This document shows, in pieces, positions 33,156 to 37,250 of a DNA stretch of 64,000 nucleotides. How positions within the stretch are numbered: position 1 is the first letter of the stretch; each line of letters starts with the position of its first letter. The notes under the pieces were generated by a model. The model worked only from the letters and a program-made list of their open reading frames with translations. It had not been told where the DNA came from and made no database searches. The position numbers and the translations under genes were made by a program. This DNA comes from Solibacteraceae bacterium (GTDB lineage: Bacteria; Acidobacteriota; Terriglobia; Bryobacterales; Bryobacteraceae): NCBI GenBank assembly GCA_026984795.1, contig JALSRK010000031.1, positions 62,001-126,000 on the forward strand, read 5' to 3'.

Positions 33156-34208
33156 CTACCGCAAAACGGGTTTGCCAGCGGGTTGCTGCTGGGTGAGGCA
33201 GTGGATCGTGCCGAGGCCGAGGACGAGGTCGCGGCTGTAGATGCCGACCACCTGCCGGCCCGGGAAGCACCGCGCCAGTACGTTCAACGCCCGGCAGTCG
33301 TTCGGATCGCTGAAAACGGGAACCAGCACCACCGAGTTGGCGATATAGAAGTTCGCGTAGCTGGCGGGCAGGCGCTGACCCTTGAAGTAGACCGGTTCGG
33401 GCATGGGCAGTGGGATGACGCGCAAGGGGCGGCCGGCGGCGGTGGAGGCCCGCTTCAGCCTTTTGAAGTTCTCCCGCAGCGGCTCGTAGTTCGGATCGCT
33501 GCGGTCCCGCTCCACCGCGGCGACGACGGTACCCGGCGAAGTAAAGCGGGCGATGTCGTCGATGTGGCCGTGGGTGTCGTCGCCGGCGATGCCGCGGCCG
33601 AGCCAGACGGTGCGCTGGACGCCAAGGAATTGCCGGAAAGCCGCTTCCCAATCGGCCTTCGAGAAGCCCGGATTGCGGGCCTGCACCGGGCTAAGCAGGC
33701 ACTCCTCGGTGACCAGCGCCGTGCCGCGGCCATCGACGTCGATGGCCCCTCCTTCGAAGACGATCCCGGTCTCTACCTGCGGGATGCCCAGCTTGCGGGA
33801 GACGAAGCCGGGGACGCGGTCGTCGAGCTGCCAGTCCGAGTACTTGGCCCAGGCGTTGAATTTCCAGTTGGTGATCGAGACGCGGCCGGCGCGGTCCGTG
33901 ACGAAGATCGGCCCGGAATCGCGCAGCCAGCCGCGGTTGGTCGGGCAAAAGTAGAACTCGACCGAGGGGGCCAGGGCGCCGGCGGCGCGGAGGGTTCGCC
34001 TGGCCTTCTCGGCGTGATCGCGGTCCTGGACCAGGATGCGGACCTTCTCGTACGGGGCCAGGCGCCGAACGATCTCGGCGTAGACCCAACGGATGGGAGC
34101 GAACTTGCCCGGCCAGTCGGTCCGTTCATGGGGCCAACCGATCCAAGTAGCTTCGTGGGGCTCCCACTCGGCCGGCATCCGGAGCGCCCCGGGTCGGGAA
34201 GATCTCAT
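33156..34208 (-). CDS. aguA: Agmatine deiminase
   Basis: 350 aa. Hydrolyses agmatine to N-carbamoylputrescine and ammonia. The pentein-fold active site is visible: WLRDSGPIFV, FEGGAIDVDG, DDTHGHIDDIARF and the nucleophile C337 in GLGTIHCLTQQQ. The ATG at 34208 overlaps the stop of aguB by 4 bases (ATGA), so the two are translationally coupled and carry out consecutive steps from agmatine to putrescine. The start choice is fixed by this overlap; the long open frame upstream is a shadow of aguB. Confidence 0.95.
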   Translation of the reverse strand: MRSSRPGALRMPAEWEPHEATWIGWPHERTDWPGKFAPIRWVYAEIVRRLAPYEKVRILVQDRDHAEKARRTLRAAGALAPSVEFYFCPTNRGWLRDSGPIFVTDRAGRVSITNWKFNAWAKYSDWQLDDRVPGFVSRKLGIPQVETGIVFEGGAIDVDGRGTALVTEECLLSPVQARNPGFSKADWEAAFRQFLGVQRTVWLGRGIAGDDTHGHIDDIARFTSPGTVVAAVERDRSDPNYEPLRENFKRLKRASTAAGRPLRVIPLPMPEPVYFKGQRLPASYANFYIANSVVLVPVFSDPNDCRALNVLARCFPGRQVVGIYSRDLVLGLGTIHCLTQQQPAGKPVLR

Positions 34209-35098
34209 GAATCCAGCCACCTCGCCGTGAGGCCCCCGTAAGCGTCCACGCGGCGGTCGCGCAGGAACGGCCAGTTGCGCCGGACCTCCTCGATGCGGGC
34301 CGGGTCGCACTCGGCGATGAGGGTTTCCTCGCGGTCCACCGGGGCTTCGGCGACGATTTCGCCGAAGGGGCCGGCCAGGAAGGAAGAACCCCAGAACTCC
34401 AACTGCTCGCCGCCGGAACCCTCGACGCCGGTGCGGTTCACCGCCGCCACGTAGACGCCGTTGGCGATGGCGTGCGCCCGCTGGATGATCTGCCAGGCCT
34501 CGCGCTGGCCGGCGCCGGACTCCTCTTTCTCGGACGGGTGCCAGCCGATGGCCGTGGGGTAGAAGAGGATCTGCGCCCCCTGCAGCGCGGTGAGGCGGGC
34601 GGCCTCGGGATACCACTGGTCCCAGCAGACCAGCACGCCGATGCGGGCGTAGCGCGTGGCGAAGGTGCGGTAGCCGGTGTCGCCGGGGGTGAAGTAGAAC
34701 TTCTCGTAGTAGAGCGGATCGTGGGGGATGTGCGACTTGCGGTAGAGGCCGAGCAGCTCGCCGCCGGCGTCGATGACGACGGCCGTGTTGTGGTAGAGGC
34801 CGGGCGAGCGGCGCTCGAAGAGGGAGCCGACGATGACCACGCCGAGCTCGGCGGCCAGGCGCGAAAGCCGCTCGGTGGTAGGTCCGGGCACCGGCTCGGC
34901 CAGATTGAAAAGCGACGCGTCCTCGACCCGGCAAAAGTACTCGGTGTGGAACAGCTCCTGGAGGCAGACGATCTGGGCGCCGTGTCCGGCGGCTTCGCGG
35001 ATGCGCCAGGCGGCCTTCTCGGTGTTCTCGGCGGGGTCGGCGGAACAGGCCATCTGAATGAGTCCGACGCGGAACGGCAATGCGGCTCGAGCGCTCAT
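34205..35098 (-). CDS. aguB: N-carbamoylputrescine amidase
   Basis: 297 aa nitrilase-superfamily enzyme. Converts N-carbamoylputrescine to putrescine, CO2 and ammonia. The catalytic triad is E48 (LQELF), K121 (YRKSHIP) and C158 (VCWDQWYPE). The sequence HDPLYYEKFYFTPGD is typical of the AguB branch. It is upstream of aguA in one operon and follows the purine nucleoside phosphorylase gene after 29 bases. GGGGAG lies directly before the ATG. Confidence 0.94.
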   Translation of the reverse strand: MSARAALPFRVGLIQMACSADPAENTEKAAWRIREAAGHGAQIVCLQELFHTEYFCRVEDASLFNLAEPVPGPTTERLSRLAAELGVVIVGSLFERRSPGLYHNTAVVIDAGGELLGLYRKSHIPHDPLYYEKFYFTPGDTGYRTFATRYARIGVLVCWDQWYPEAARLTALQGAQILFYPTAIGWHPSEKEESGAGQREAWQIIQRAHAIANGVYVAAVNRTGVEGSGGEQLEFWGSSFLAGPFGEIVAEAPVDREETLIAECDPARIEEVRRNWPFLRDRRVDAYGGLTARWLDS

Positions 35099-35127: not shown

Positions 35128-35949
35128 CTATAGAAGCCCGGCAAACTCGGCGAGCAGGCGTGCGAGAGCGTCTTCCACCCGCCGGCCGGCCTCGAGGACC
35201 TCGGTGTGGGAAAGCGGCTCAGGGGAGAGTCCGGCGGCCAGGTTCGTCACGCAGGAGATGCCCAGGATCTCGATGCCCATCTGGCGGGCGGCGATCACCT
35301 CCTGGACGGTGGACATGCCCACGAGGTCGGCTCCGATCGTGCGCAGGAAGCGGATCTCTGCCGGCGTCTCGAAGTTCGGGCCCAAAACGGCGGCATAGAC
35401 GCCCTCTGCAAGCTCCATCCCGCACCGGGCCGCCGCCTCGCGGGCGAGCGACCGCAGCCGAGGCGAATAGGCCTCGGACATGTCCACGAAGCGCGTCCCG
35501 AACGCTTCGGCCCCGGCTCCGGCGAGGGGACTGGCGGCTTGCAGGTTCAGGTGGTCGCGGATGAGAACGAGTGAGCCGGGCGCCAGCGCGGGATTCACCG
35601 CCCCGGCGGCGTTGGTCACTACGAGCATGCCGGCGCCCAGTTTGCCCAGAACCCGCACGGCGAAGGCGGCATCGGCGGCGCTGAAGCCCTCGTACAGGTG
35701 AACGCGGCCGCAGAGGGCGAGAACACGCCTGCCCCGGACGCGGCCGGCGATCAAGCGGCCCGGATGTCCCGCGGCGGCCGACCGGGGCCAGCCGGAGATC
35801 CGGGAAAACGGGATGCTGGCATCCACCTCCAGGAACCGTGCGGCCCCGCTGAGGCCGCTGCCGAACAAGACGCCGAAATCGGGGCGCGGGACGCCCTGGG
35901 CTCGAAGAAAGAGCGCAGCGCGCTCGATGCGGTCTGCTAGTTCGGCTAT
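35128..35949 (-). CDS. Purine nucleoside phosphorylase (trimeric PNP family), probable AUA start
   Basis: Phosphorolysis of purine nucleosides. Family marks: VLFGSGL, NAAGAVNPALAPGSLVLI, GPNFETPAEIRFLR, VGMSTVQEVIAARQMG and SCVTNLAAG. The first conventional start in frame is a TTG at 35868, but conserved sequence (RIERAALFLRAQG, VPRPDFGVLF) runs 27 codons further up. Between an in-frame TGA and that TTG there is no ATG, GTG or TTG. The only sensible start is ATA at 35949-35947, which overlaps the stop of the upstream gene as ATAG and has GAGG a few bases before it. That gives 273 aa, the usual length. A sequencing or assembly error of ATG is the alternative. Confidence 0.85.
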   Translation of the reverse strand: MAELADRIERAALFLRAQGVPRPDFGVLFGSGLSGAARFLEVDASIPFSRISGWPRSAAAGHPGRLIAGRVRGRRVLALCGRVHLYEGFSAADAAFAVRVLGKLGAGMLVVTNAAGAVNPALAPGSLVLIRDHLNLQAASPLAGAGAEAFGTRFVDMSEAYSPRLRSLAREAAARCGMELAEGVYAAVLGPNFETPAEIRFLRTIGADLVGMSTVQEVIAARQMGIEILGISCVTNLAAGLSPEPLSHTEVLEAGRRVEDALARLLAEFAGLL

Positions 35950-37250
35950 CCCACCACCTCGAGAATCAAGTTGGTCTCATCCGGCGGCTGATTCGAGATC
36001 CGGAAAGCGTCTTCGACCTGCTCGGCCGCCTCGTCGAGCCGCTCCTCGCTGGTGTAATAGAGCCGGCACAGCACGGCGCCTTCGTCGACTTTCTGACCGA
36101 CCTTCACTTCGAGGATGACGCCGACGGCCGGATCGATCGTCTCGTCGCGGGACTCGCGGCTGGCTCCGATCATGCCGGCGGCCACGCCGATGTCGTGGGC
36201 GTCGATGCCGGTGACGAAACCCGTCCGGGGGCTCAGGATTTCGCGGGCGCCCATGGCGTTGGGCAGCAGGTCGAAGCGATCCAGCACCTGGGGGTTGCCG
36301 CCCTGGGCTTCGATGACCTCTTTGAACTTCTGGTAACCCGAGCCGTCCAGCAGTTTCGCCTGGGCCATCTCGCGCGCCTCACCGATGGTGGCCGTGACCT
36401 CGCCGAGGAAGATCATCCGGGCGGCCAGCTCGAGTGACAGGGCCGTCAAGTCGGTCGGACCGACGTTCTGCAGCGTTTGAGACGCTTCCATGACCTCCAG
36501 CGCGTTGCCGATGGCGTAGCCGAGAGGCTGGTTCATATCGGTGATCAGCGCCTGGACGCGCTTGTCCGAGCGGCGGGCGATGGCCACCATCATCTGTGCG
36601 AGACGGCGGGCTTTCACCTGGCGCCGCAGCCCCCCGCCGGAGCCGACCTTGATATCGACCACGCTGGCGTCGAGAGCGGTGGCGAGCTTCTTCGCCATTA
36701 CGGAGGCGGCCATGAGCGGTACGGACTCCACAGTGGCGGTGTTCTCGCGCAGCACCCGCAGCCGGGCGTCGGCAGGAACCATATCGGGGCTGCCGGCCGA
36801 GTAAGCCAGGCCCACCTGGTTCAACTGCGTACGGAGTTCGTCCGTGCTGAGGTCGGTCCGGAAACCGGGGATCGATTCCAGCTTGTCGAGGGTGCCGCCG
36901 ACCGCTCCAAGAGCCCGCTCAGCGAGCATCGGCACCACGACGCCCGCCGAGGCGGCCAGGGGTGCGGCGATCATCGCCGTTTTGTCCCCGACGCCGCCGG
37001 TAGAGTACATATCGACTTTGACGCCGGGTACCGCGGACAGGTCGAGAGGGACGGCAGTTTGCAGCAAGTGGTTCGTCAGCGCCGTCACTTCGGCGTCGGA
37101 CATGCCGGAGAAATAGACGGCCATCAAAAAGGCGGCCATCTGGTAGTCCGGCACCTCATTGCGGGAGTAGGCTTCGAGGAGCGCGGTCAGCTCCTCCGGG
37201 GCAAGTTCCTCCCCATCCCGCTTACGCTGGATCAAGTCGACTATACGCAT
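35946..37250 (-). CDS. Thymidine/pyrimidine-nucleoside phosphorylase homologue with altered active site
   Basis: 434 aa, full length, aligning without gaps (constant offset of 3) to the E. coli enzyme over the active-site region. Retained are S86, L117, T123, R171, S186 and K190 (here S83, L114, T120, R168, S183, K187). Replaced are K84 (M81), H85 (Y82), S95 (A92), S113 (A110), H119 (A116) and F210 (G207). Three phosphate ligands and the thymine-contacting His are thus lost. The C-terminal barrel-sandwich domain is normal. It may act on a different acceptor or substrate. The gene overlaps the purine nucleoside phosphorylase start by 4 bases. Residue roles are from memory of the E. coli structure. 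Confidence 0.88.
   Translation of the reverse strand: MRIVDLIQRKRDGEELAPEELTALLEAYSRNEVPDYQMAAFLMAVYFSGMSDAEVTALTNHLLQTAVPLDLSAVPGVKVDMYSTGGVGDKTAMIAAPLAASAGVVVPMLAERALGAVGGTLDKLESIPGFRTDLSTDELRTQLNQVGLAYSAGSPDMVPADARLRVLRENTATVESVPLMAASVMAKKLATALDASVVDIKVGSGGGLRRQVKARRLAQMMVAIARRSDKRVQALITDMNQPLGYAIGNALEVMEASQTLQNVGPTDLTALSLELAARMIFLGEVTATIGEAREMAQAKLLDGSGYQKFKEVIEAQGGNPQVLDRFDLLPNAMGAREILSPRTGFVTGIDAHDIGVAAGMIGASRESRDETIDPAVGVILEVKVGQKVDEGAVLCRLYYTSEERLDEAAEQVEDAFRISNQPPDETNLILEVVG

Follow-up and report, generated by a model that had tools for sequence, protein, structure and literature searches.

The main result of this study is that a gene of the thymidine phosphorylase (TP) family in the window—the whole stretch of 64,000 nucleotides of Solibacteraceae DNA analyzed here—encodes a protein that has kept the TP fold and, judging from its active-site residues, very probably no longer performs phosphorolysis. 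In place of a glycine at position 114, in the glycine-rich loop, stands a new carboxylate, and such an acid appears to have arisen at least twice in the order. The best explanation that we can offer, tentatively and by analogy with GH65 hydrolases, is a phosphate-independent nucleoside-cleaving enzyme in which the new carboxylate would occupy the phosphate site. The features on which the argument rests are collected in Table 1.

Table 1. Features discussed in the text, with positions in the window; substitutions are numbered as in E. coli TP
Feature	Position	Strand	Basis
Agmatine-deiminase-like gene (aguA-like)	33156..34208	-	NF010070 296.2 bits (cut-off 483), TIGR03380 293.2 bits (cut-off 382), both below
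N-carbamoylputrescine-amidase-like gene (aguB-like)	34205..35098	-	best NCBIfam TIGR03381 315.9 bits, below cut-off 410
Purine nucleoside phosphorylase (PNP)	35128..35868	-	NF006054 317 bits, cut-off 218
TP-like gene (thymidine/pyrimidine-nucleoside-phosphorylase homologue, altered active site)	35946..37250	-	ORF, 434 aa, complete
G207 codon: F210G	36630..36632	-	alignment
S183 to K187: S186 and K190, retained	36690..36704	-	alignment
R168 codon: R171, retained	36747..36749	-	alignment
R165 codon: Y168R	36756..36758	-	alignment
A116-V117 codons: H119A, T120V	36900..36905	-	alignment
A110-E111 codons: S113A, G114E (new carboxylate, glycine-rich loop)	36918..36923	-	alignment; G114E codon 36920-36918
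A92 codon: S95A	36975..36977	-	alignment
M81 and Y82 codons: K84M, H85Y	37005..37010	-	alignment; K84M codon 37010-37008

The TP-like protein has the full three-domain architecture of the NP-II family (PF02885, PF00591 and PF07831, its only Pfam matches), and the inosine-uridine nucleoside hydrolase domain PF01156 is absent. It scores above the NCBIfam cut-offs of TIGR02644 (447.7 bits, cut-off 409) and NF004490 (431.5, cut-off 269) and below those of the stricter models TIGR02643 (340.7, cut-off 570.7) and NF004747 (423.5, cut-off 559). Its AlphaFold model has a pLDDT of 91, and the closest solved structure is 1brw (phmmer E 1e-114; Foldseek TM 0.97, rmsd 1.5). AlphaFold confidence is low in the altered loops, but we do not read this as dismantling, because the canonical control L033 is equally low in the blocks 111-120, 151-160 and 161-170 (71, 63 and 65, versus 76, 64 and 77 in the window protein), which makes loop confidence uninformative on this point. 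The gene is single in its genome, where the sole other match is a TrpD-like gene (L002); the TP-like protein itself reaches 51.6 bits against the TrpD model TIGR01245 (cut-off 199, not passed) and lacks the KHGN motif. The canonical TP of the same family (176 full-length members without the acid) is an apparently orthologous single-copy gene with 63-71% identity to that of the window, and most members keep the motifs KH..S, SGR..GHTGGT, Y..RD and GAFM.

Residues are given in what we take to be the numbering of E. coli TP, from which the window protein is offset by 3 through the active site. Presumably, the classical phosphate contacts of TP are K84, S86, S95, S113 and T123; three of these five are gone (K84, S95, S113) and two retained (S86, T123). 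Among the base contacts, R171, S186 and K190 are retained and Y168 has become Arg. Compared with NP-II phosphorylases of known structure (PDB 1brw, 7m7k, 1tpt and 2wk6), the protein thus shares the full-length fold, R171, S186, K190, S86, T123 and the STGGVGD loop, R115 being kept as well, but differs by K84M, H85Y, S95A, S113A, G114E, H119A, T120V, Y168R and F210G. The preliminary description had already reported a constant three-residue offset, the replacement of K84, S95 and S113 by Met, Ala and Ala and of H85, H119 and F210 by Tyr, Ala and Gly, and the retention of R171, S186 and K190; the codons and the alignment agree with it on all of these points. Its view that everything else is intact was too generous, for G114E, Y168R, G155A, Q156G and D172E lie in columns where 166 canonical relatives show at least 97% invariance, and T120V has to be added. 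The most telling of all these changes are G114E and Y168R. It had also considered that another set of residues might take over phosphate binding; none was seen, and a carboxylate (G114E/D) appears at the site instead.

The functional weight of these positions can be gauged from human TP. PMC2719695 proposes that the glycine-rich loop formed by residues 144-154 binds the catalytic phosphate, with the authors' own caveat that water occupied this loop in their structure and that its role could not be settled. With an offset of 31 between human and E. coli TP, this loop corresponds to positions 113-123 and includes position 114. The same paper lists H116F, H116K, Y199A, R202S/E, S217G and K115E as dead mutants and Y199F/L as impaired (PMC2719695), where human H116, Y199, R202, S217 and K115 are E. 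coli H85, Y168, R171, S186 and K84. Because H85 and Y168, both changed in the window protein, are among the positions with dead human TP mutants, ordinary thymidine phosphorolysis by this protein is very unlikely. The loss of K84 by itself would not show this, since human K115A is reported there as nearly normal (kcat 6.8 versus 8.2 per s; PMC2719695).

The acid at position 114 is not peculiar to the window. The order comprises 257 genomes in 84 genera, with an acid-114 profile match in 248, four of them of TrpD strength only, which leaves a TP-strength match in 244 of the 257; one genome that is 98% complete (G396) has none. We read 238 homologues (205 in 203 of the order's genomes, two on the contigs L032 and L033, and 31 more), and restricted tree and column counts to those covering >380 residues. 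Glu or Asp stands at position 114 in 18 of the 205 genes of the order, a count outside which lie 54 of the 257 genomes, about 41 of them with a TP-strength match where the acid may occur, and in 0 of 203 canonical homologues, all of which have Gly. These 18 genes form two clades: the window clade, with four genera of family f1 (the window's genome G000, G427, G450 and G445), and a second clade of 14 genomes of family f89 (11 of genus g287 and one each of g289, g290 and g292). A further 46 homologues, drawn from other families of the phylum (40) and from IMG/VR contigs (6), are all K84/G114, and the 162 matches in plasmid records are all <60% identical.

Within the acid-114 set, S113 is lost in 18/18 genes and K84 in 17/18. 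Over 235 sequences, 216 have K84 without the acid, 17 have lost K84 and gained the acid, one combines K84 with the acid (L042) and one has lost K84 without the acid (L228); when acid 114 and K84 loss were compared in a sign test on independent pairs, there were only two pairs, which puts significance out of reach. The STGGVGD loop is retained in 18/18, R171 in 17/18, S186 in 17/18 and K190 in 15/18. Only columns 113, 114, 210 and 211 differ in all 18 from nearly all 203 canonical sequences, and since the usual F210 and M211 are missing from the canonical f89 sisters too (F210 being Leu there), the changes at 210 and 211 are not acid-specific. Residue 85 is Cys in 8 genes, Tyr in 5, His in 4 and Leu in 1, and is either Cys or Tyr within genus g287. 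Among the four window-clade proteins, positions 84, 85, 95, 119, 123, 168, 190 and 210 differ: Y168 is replaced by R, R, K and Q (it is kept in 13/14 second-clade proteins), K190 by N or R in three of the four, R171 by Ala in L047 and S186 by Cys in L236.

Altered TP sites without the acid also occur elsewhere, in genera g2 and g218, where PNP, and NupC where checkable, stay beside TP. Genus g218 (L186, L205, L210, L213, L228) offers a graded series, with G122N, H119F and F210H, then H85Y or N, then K84Q, at a dN/dS of 0.03-0.09. In g2, the single TP gene occurs in three site versions, S113P (L004, L073, L245; dN/dS 0.08-0.11), S113G or A with H119F (L178, L181, L246, L247) and canonical (L003, L062 and others), with PNP nearby in the five altered neighborhoods checked. 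Split or shortened TP genes, each on one contig, occur in the window's family (G428:C100, G461:C48 and G487:C202) and may be real pseudogenes.

Phylogeny places the two acid clades apart. A 233-sequence tree has the window clade (support 1.0) nested in family f1 and the f89 acid set (0.987) elsewhere. Both clades were recovered (99/94 and 98/94) by IQ-TREE from 55 sequences with 48 active-site columns removed, a set that includes 12 of the 18 acid genes (all four of the window clade and 8/14 of f89), and on that tree the acid at 114 needs two changes. A single origin was rejected, the forced grouping being 184 lnL units worse (p-AU 1.5e-6), in a test whose group had been named after a first tree was seen. 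The TP of one contig in these data, L032, groups with the window's family although the contig is titled "Chloroflexi bacterium"; a wrong title or gene transfer are both possible.

The changes are concentrated where catalysis would take place. The reference was a set of 166 canonical relatives from this family, in which 165 columns are at least 97% invariant, 40 in the active site and 125 elsewhere. The window protein changes 18 of these columns, 13/40 in the active site versus 5/125 elsewhere (Fisher p 6e-6, for active-site stretches picked with the alignment in view and groups set after data inspection). Nine homologues with the canonical K84/G114, 41-61% identical, change 0-6/40 and 3-45/125, respectively. 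The acid-bearing L042, L047 and L236 change 13, 16 and 19 of the 40 and 7, 3 and 11 of the 125; the four second-clade proteins tested change 11-16/40 and 14-23/125, a weaker focus in proteins that are more distant from the reference set.

Selection on the gene can be read most clearly in the second clade, where it is under purifying selection: dN/dS is 0.020-0.063 in 15 close g287 pairs and 0.10-0.17 in wider, more saturated ones, the median for canonical same-genus pairs (n = 112, dS 0.1-0.9) being 0.075 with quartiles of 0.048 and 0.094. Values of 0.19-0.25 in the window clade (three of six pairs) are rough upper bounds with dS near saturation (0.93-1.18). All 18 acid-114 reading frames are open. 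Sequencing or assembly error was rejected as an origin of the altered sites, given 18 open genes in 18 genomes that include one-contig and three-contig assemblies (G596 and G603). So was the presence of a second, canonical copy doing the work, for there is none in the window's genome nor in the other 17 acid-114 genomes, in each of which the search found one TP and any extra match was of TrpD strength.

The neighborhood of the gene differs between the clades and their canonical relatives. Canonical TP genes of the family are typically followed by a NupC-type nucleoside transporter gene and then PNP, an order found in all four canonical f1 neighborhoods examined (L263, L264, L265 and L267), and TP is followed by NupC in the one canonical f89 neighborhood examined (L266); in the window, by contrast, PNP and the aguB-/aguA-like genes lie downstream and NupC is not adjacent. 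An aguB-like and then an aguA-like gene follow the TP-like gene in 4/4 window-clade genera, and PNP intervenes in the window alone. The nucleoside and polyamine operon of the preliminary description therefore holds in outline, with the reservation that the two polyamine-type genes score below curated NCBIfam cut-offs. The PNP frame of the window (35128-35945, minus strand) stays open on its upstream side as far as the last part of the TP-like gene and would give a plausible N terminus (...ELADRIERAALFLRAQGVPRPDFGVLFGSGL), but the first ATG, GTG or TTG codon in it is the TTG at 35868, where a start would cut ~28 residues; without a usual start codon in this upstream frame, a non-standard or coupled start is likely. 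In the other three window-clade genera, the TP-like gene is preceded by an inositol-monophosphatase-family gene and a VWA-domain gene and, in two of the three, by a MoaD-MoaE fusion. The fusion, the VWA-domain protein (TIGR03436) and the phosphatase-family gene lie upstream in members of both acid clades (L250 4907-7678; L262 8779-11476). In f89, this block is complete in L260 and L262, lacks MoaDE in L261 and is reduced to the phosphatase before the canonical TP of L266. Because parts of it also precede f89 genes, including a canonical f89 TP, the block is probably an ancestral arrangement and no new partnership.

Genes for nucleoside uptake and sugar-phosphate use change as well. The nucleoside transporter beside TP is lost or altered in many acid-114 genomes: NupC does not adjoin the TP-like gene in the window clade or in the two g287 neighborhoods examined. 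A distant NupC lineage with GMVEAP, at a motif that we take to contact the base, is found elsewhere in the genomes G000, G427 and G450 (canonical f1 genomes have GQTEAP), and none was found in G445 (91% complete). The motif is GQAEAP in the six g287 genomes examined and GQNEAP in G600. A rule that acid genomes have lost NupC was rejected, since G609 and G600 do have NupC next to the TP-like gene, and the GQSEAP of the canonical f89 genomes G606 and G610 recurs in G603 and G609. The lysine of FVKTSTG, presumably the Schiff-base lysine of the deoxyribose-phosphate aldolase DeoC, is absent in 9/9 aligned DeoC homologues from f89 acid-114 genomes (a count that leaves out G600, not alignable, G612, with no match, and G598, G601 and G608) and is kept in both canonical f89 genomes examined (G606 and G610). 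The lysine-less genes (L320, L326-L332 and L334, from G603, G597, G596, G602, G594, G607, G609, G599 and G611) are the sole DeoC homologue found in each genome, which includes the one-contig genome G596. In two close g287 genome pairs, lysine-less DeoC has a dN/dS of 0.141 and 0.193 versus 0.033 and 0.037 for the TP-like gene, a contrast read without a baseline for intact DeoC. The window clade lacks the usual DeoC type and has other DeoC paralogues with the lysine; we rejected this loss as acid-specific there, because G474, with an ordinary TP, also lacks that type. Extra lysine-less DeoC-like paralogues occur beside another DeoC in G000 (L337), G485 (L338) and G402 (L339), thus also in non-acid-114 genomes. 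Aldolase and transporter change along with TP most sharply in g287, and less regularly elsewhere.

In the phosphate-independent enzyme that we tentatively propose, the carboxylate at 114, which by its position in the loop and the alignment with TrpD would sit in the phosphate site, would replace the phosphate ion and could act as a general base for water or as a nucleophile. The N-glycosidic bond of a nucleoside would then be cleaved without phosphate, and free (deoxy)ribose released instead of a sugar 1-phosphate. A carboxylate in the phosphate loop is expected to repel phosphate, and release of free sugar would leave the aldolase less to do or even without a substrate, which fits the inactivation of DeoC in the second clade. 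The substrate in the window clade is probably different from thymidine and uridine because of the change in the base pocket at Y168. There is a parallel for such a conversion in an unrelated family. According to PMC8626586, the Ser, Ser, His and Lys of GH65 phosphorylases are replaced by Pro, Ala, Phe and Met in the GH65 hydrolase FjGH65A, whose general base is a Glu located in the phosphate site, and E616Q loses activity; phosphorylase-to-hydrolase differences are described there for the sugar-cleaving families GH65 and GH130. The likeness to the window protein lies in the change of a phosphate-site Lys to Met and of Ser to Ala or Pro, and in the new Glu in the site. The differences are an unrelated fold and substrate, and an activity that is proven for FjGH65A, whereas the window protein is known from its sequence. 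A fuller evolutionary account would be that two lineages independently turned a single-copy TP into a phosphate-independent nucleosidase (or deoxyribosyltransferase), with S113 and K84 going out and the acid coming in at 114, as the earlier steps of nucleoside uptake and sugar-phosphate use disappeared or changed; we regard this whole sequence of events as possible, though less likely than not.

Several observations speak against a hydrolase. There is no fixed substitute for H85, residue 85 being variable (C/Y/H/L), and the sites of relatives in g218 and g2 are altered with no acid at 114. The changes at R171, S186 and K190 in single window-clade members are unlikely for one conserved pyrimidine activity and, together with the variability of 85, favor a binding-only pseudoenzyme: a TP fold that has lost catalysis and persists to bind nucleosides or bases, to regulate or to scaffold, in which the acid at 114 would fill the empty anion site and lock the closed form. 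That many site positions vary among the four window-clade proteins, and residue 85 even inside g287, that conserved catalytic residues are lost and the fold kept (TM 0.97 to 1brw), and that the old pathway looks gone in the second clade, where the DeoC lysine is missing from all nine alignable homologues, would all suit such a protein. By itself, however, it does not predict the same E/D114 in two clades with S113 lost in all 18 genes, and R171 and S186 are each retained in 17/18. We consider it a serious possibility, if a somewhat doubtful one, and a close rival of the hydrolase, so that the earlier suggestion of a nucleoside-binding or non-phosphorolytic enzyme survives with both of its halves as leading readings. 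Nucleoside 2'-deoxyribosyltransferases work through a Glu glycosyl-enzyme, and the TP-like protein might likewise have turned to another acceptor or substrate, by deoxyribosyl transfer through such an intermediate or by binding a phosphorylated or carboxylated substrate with the new R168. The basic or polar residues (R, R, K or Q) near R171 in the window clade are consistent with this, as is TrpD (anthranilate phosphoribosyltransferase), a member of the same superfamily whose carboxylate substrate is handled by a conserved Arg and by the Asn equivalent to position 114. The Asn of its KHGNR motif aligns with position 114 (MLAER in the window) and, according to PMC9835598, this residue (N138) contacts anthranilate beside the ribose of PRPP. 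The window protein differs from TrpD in lacking KHGN, in being longer and in its PYNP_C domain, and TrpD is a separate gene of the same genome. With Y168 kept in 13/14 of the second clade and no partner gene indicating a specific acceptor, a transfer chemistry of this kind seems unlikely.

It is very improbable that the protein is still a phosphorylase with a rearranged phosphate site. The window protein keeps S86, T123 and the STGGVGD loop, and human K115A has nearly wild-type activity, but H85Y and Y168R fall where human H116F, H116K and Y199A are dead, three phosphate contacts are gone at once, and a carboxylate stands in the phosphate loop. Ordinary decay of an unneeded salvage gene whose frame is not yet broken is scarcely credible overall and is largely refuted for the second clade. 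Decay would be in keeping with the lack of an adjoining NupC (window clade and two g287 neighborhoods), the lost DeoC lysine of the second clade and the broken TP genes elsewhere in the family, and the window-clade dN/dS is only an upper bound, with dS nearly saturated. Against it stand the dN/dS of close g287 pairs, which lies under the canonical median, the excess of window changes in active-site columns, and 18 open frames out of 18. Change rather than decay is thus highly probable, and the preliminary description, which had preferred a change of chemistry, is upheld in so far as an intact frame, an active-site focus and purifying selection in relatives disfavor decay; for the window clade itself, it has the bounded dN/dS to contend with.

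To our knowledge, no hydrolase of the NP-II fold is known. Our literature search found nothing on TP as a pseudoenzyme or on TP in acidobacteria, and no hydrolase of the TP fold was among the matches listed, which is weak evidence in both cases because most subscription journals lay outside the search. The finding has consequences for annotation and for the study of this family. As the protein passes the NCBIfam cut-offs for pyrimidine-nucleoside phosphorylase (TIGR02644) and thymidine phosphorylase (NF004490), metabolic models of these bacteria would be given a reaction that it very likely cannot do. The two acid clades, their canonical sisters, L042 (which has E114 and keeps K84) and the relatives altered without the acid amount to a natural replicated experiment, which makes the question of a change from phosphorylase to another function testable. 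If the phosphate-independent enzyme that we tentatively propose is real, the NP-II fold would gain its first known hydrolase, and a new, phosphate-free role would have been hidden under the usual database name.
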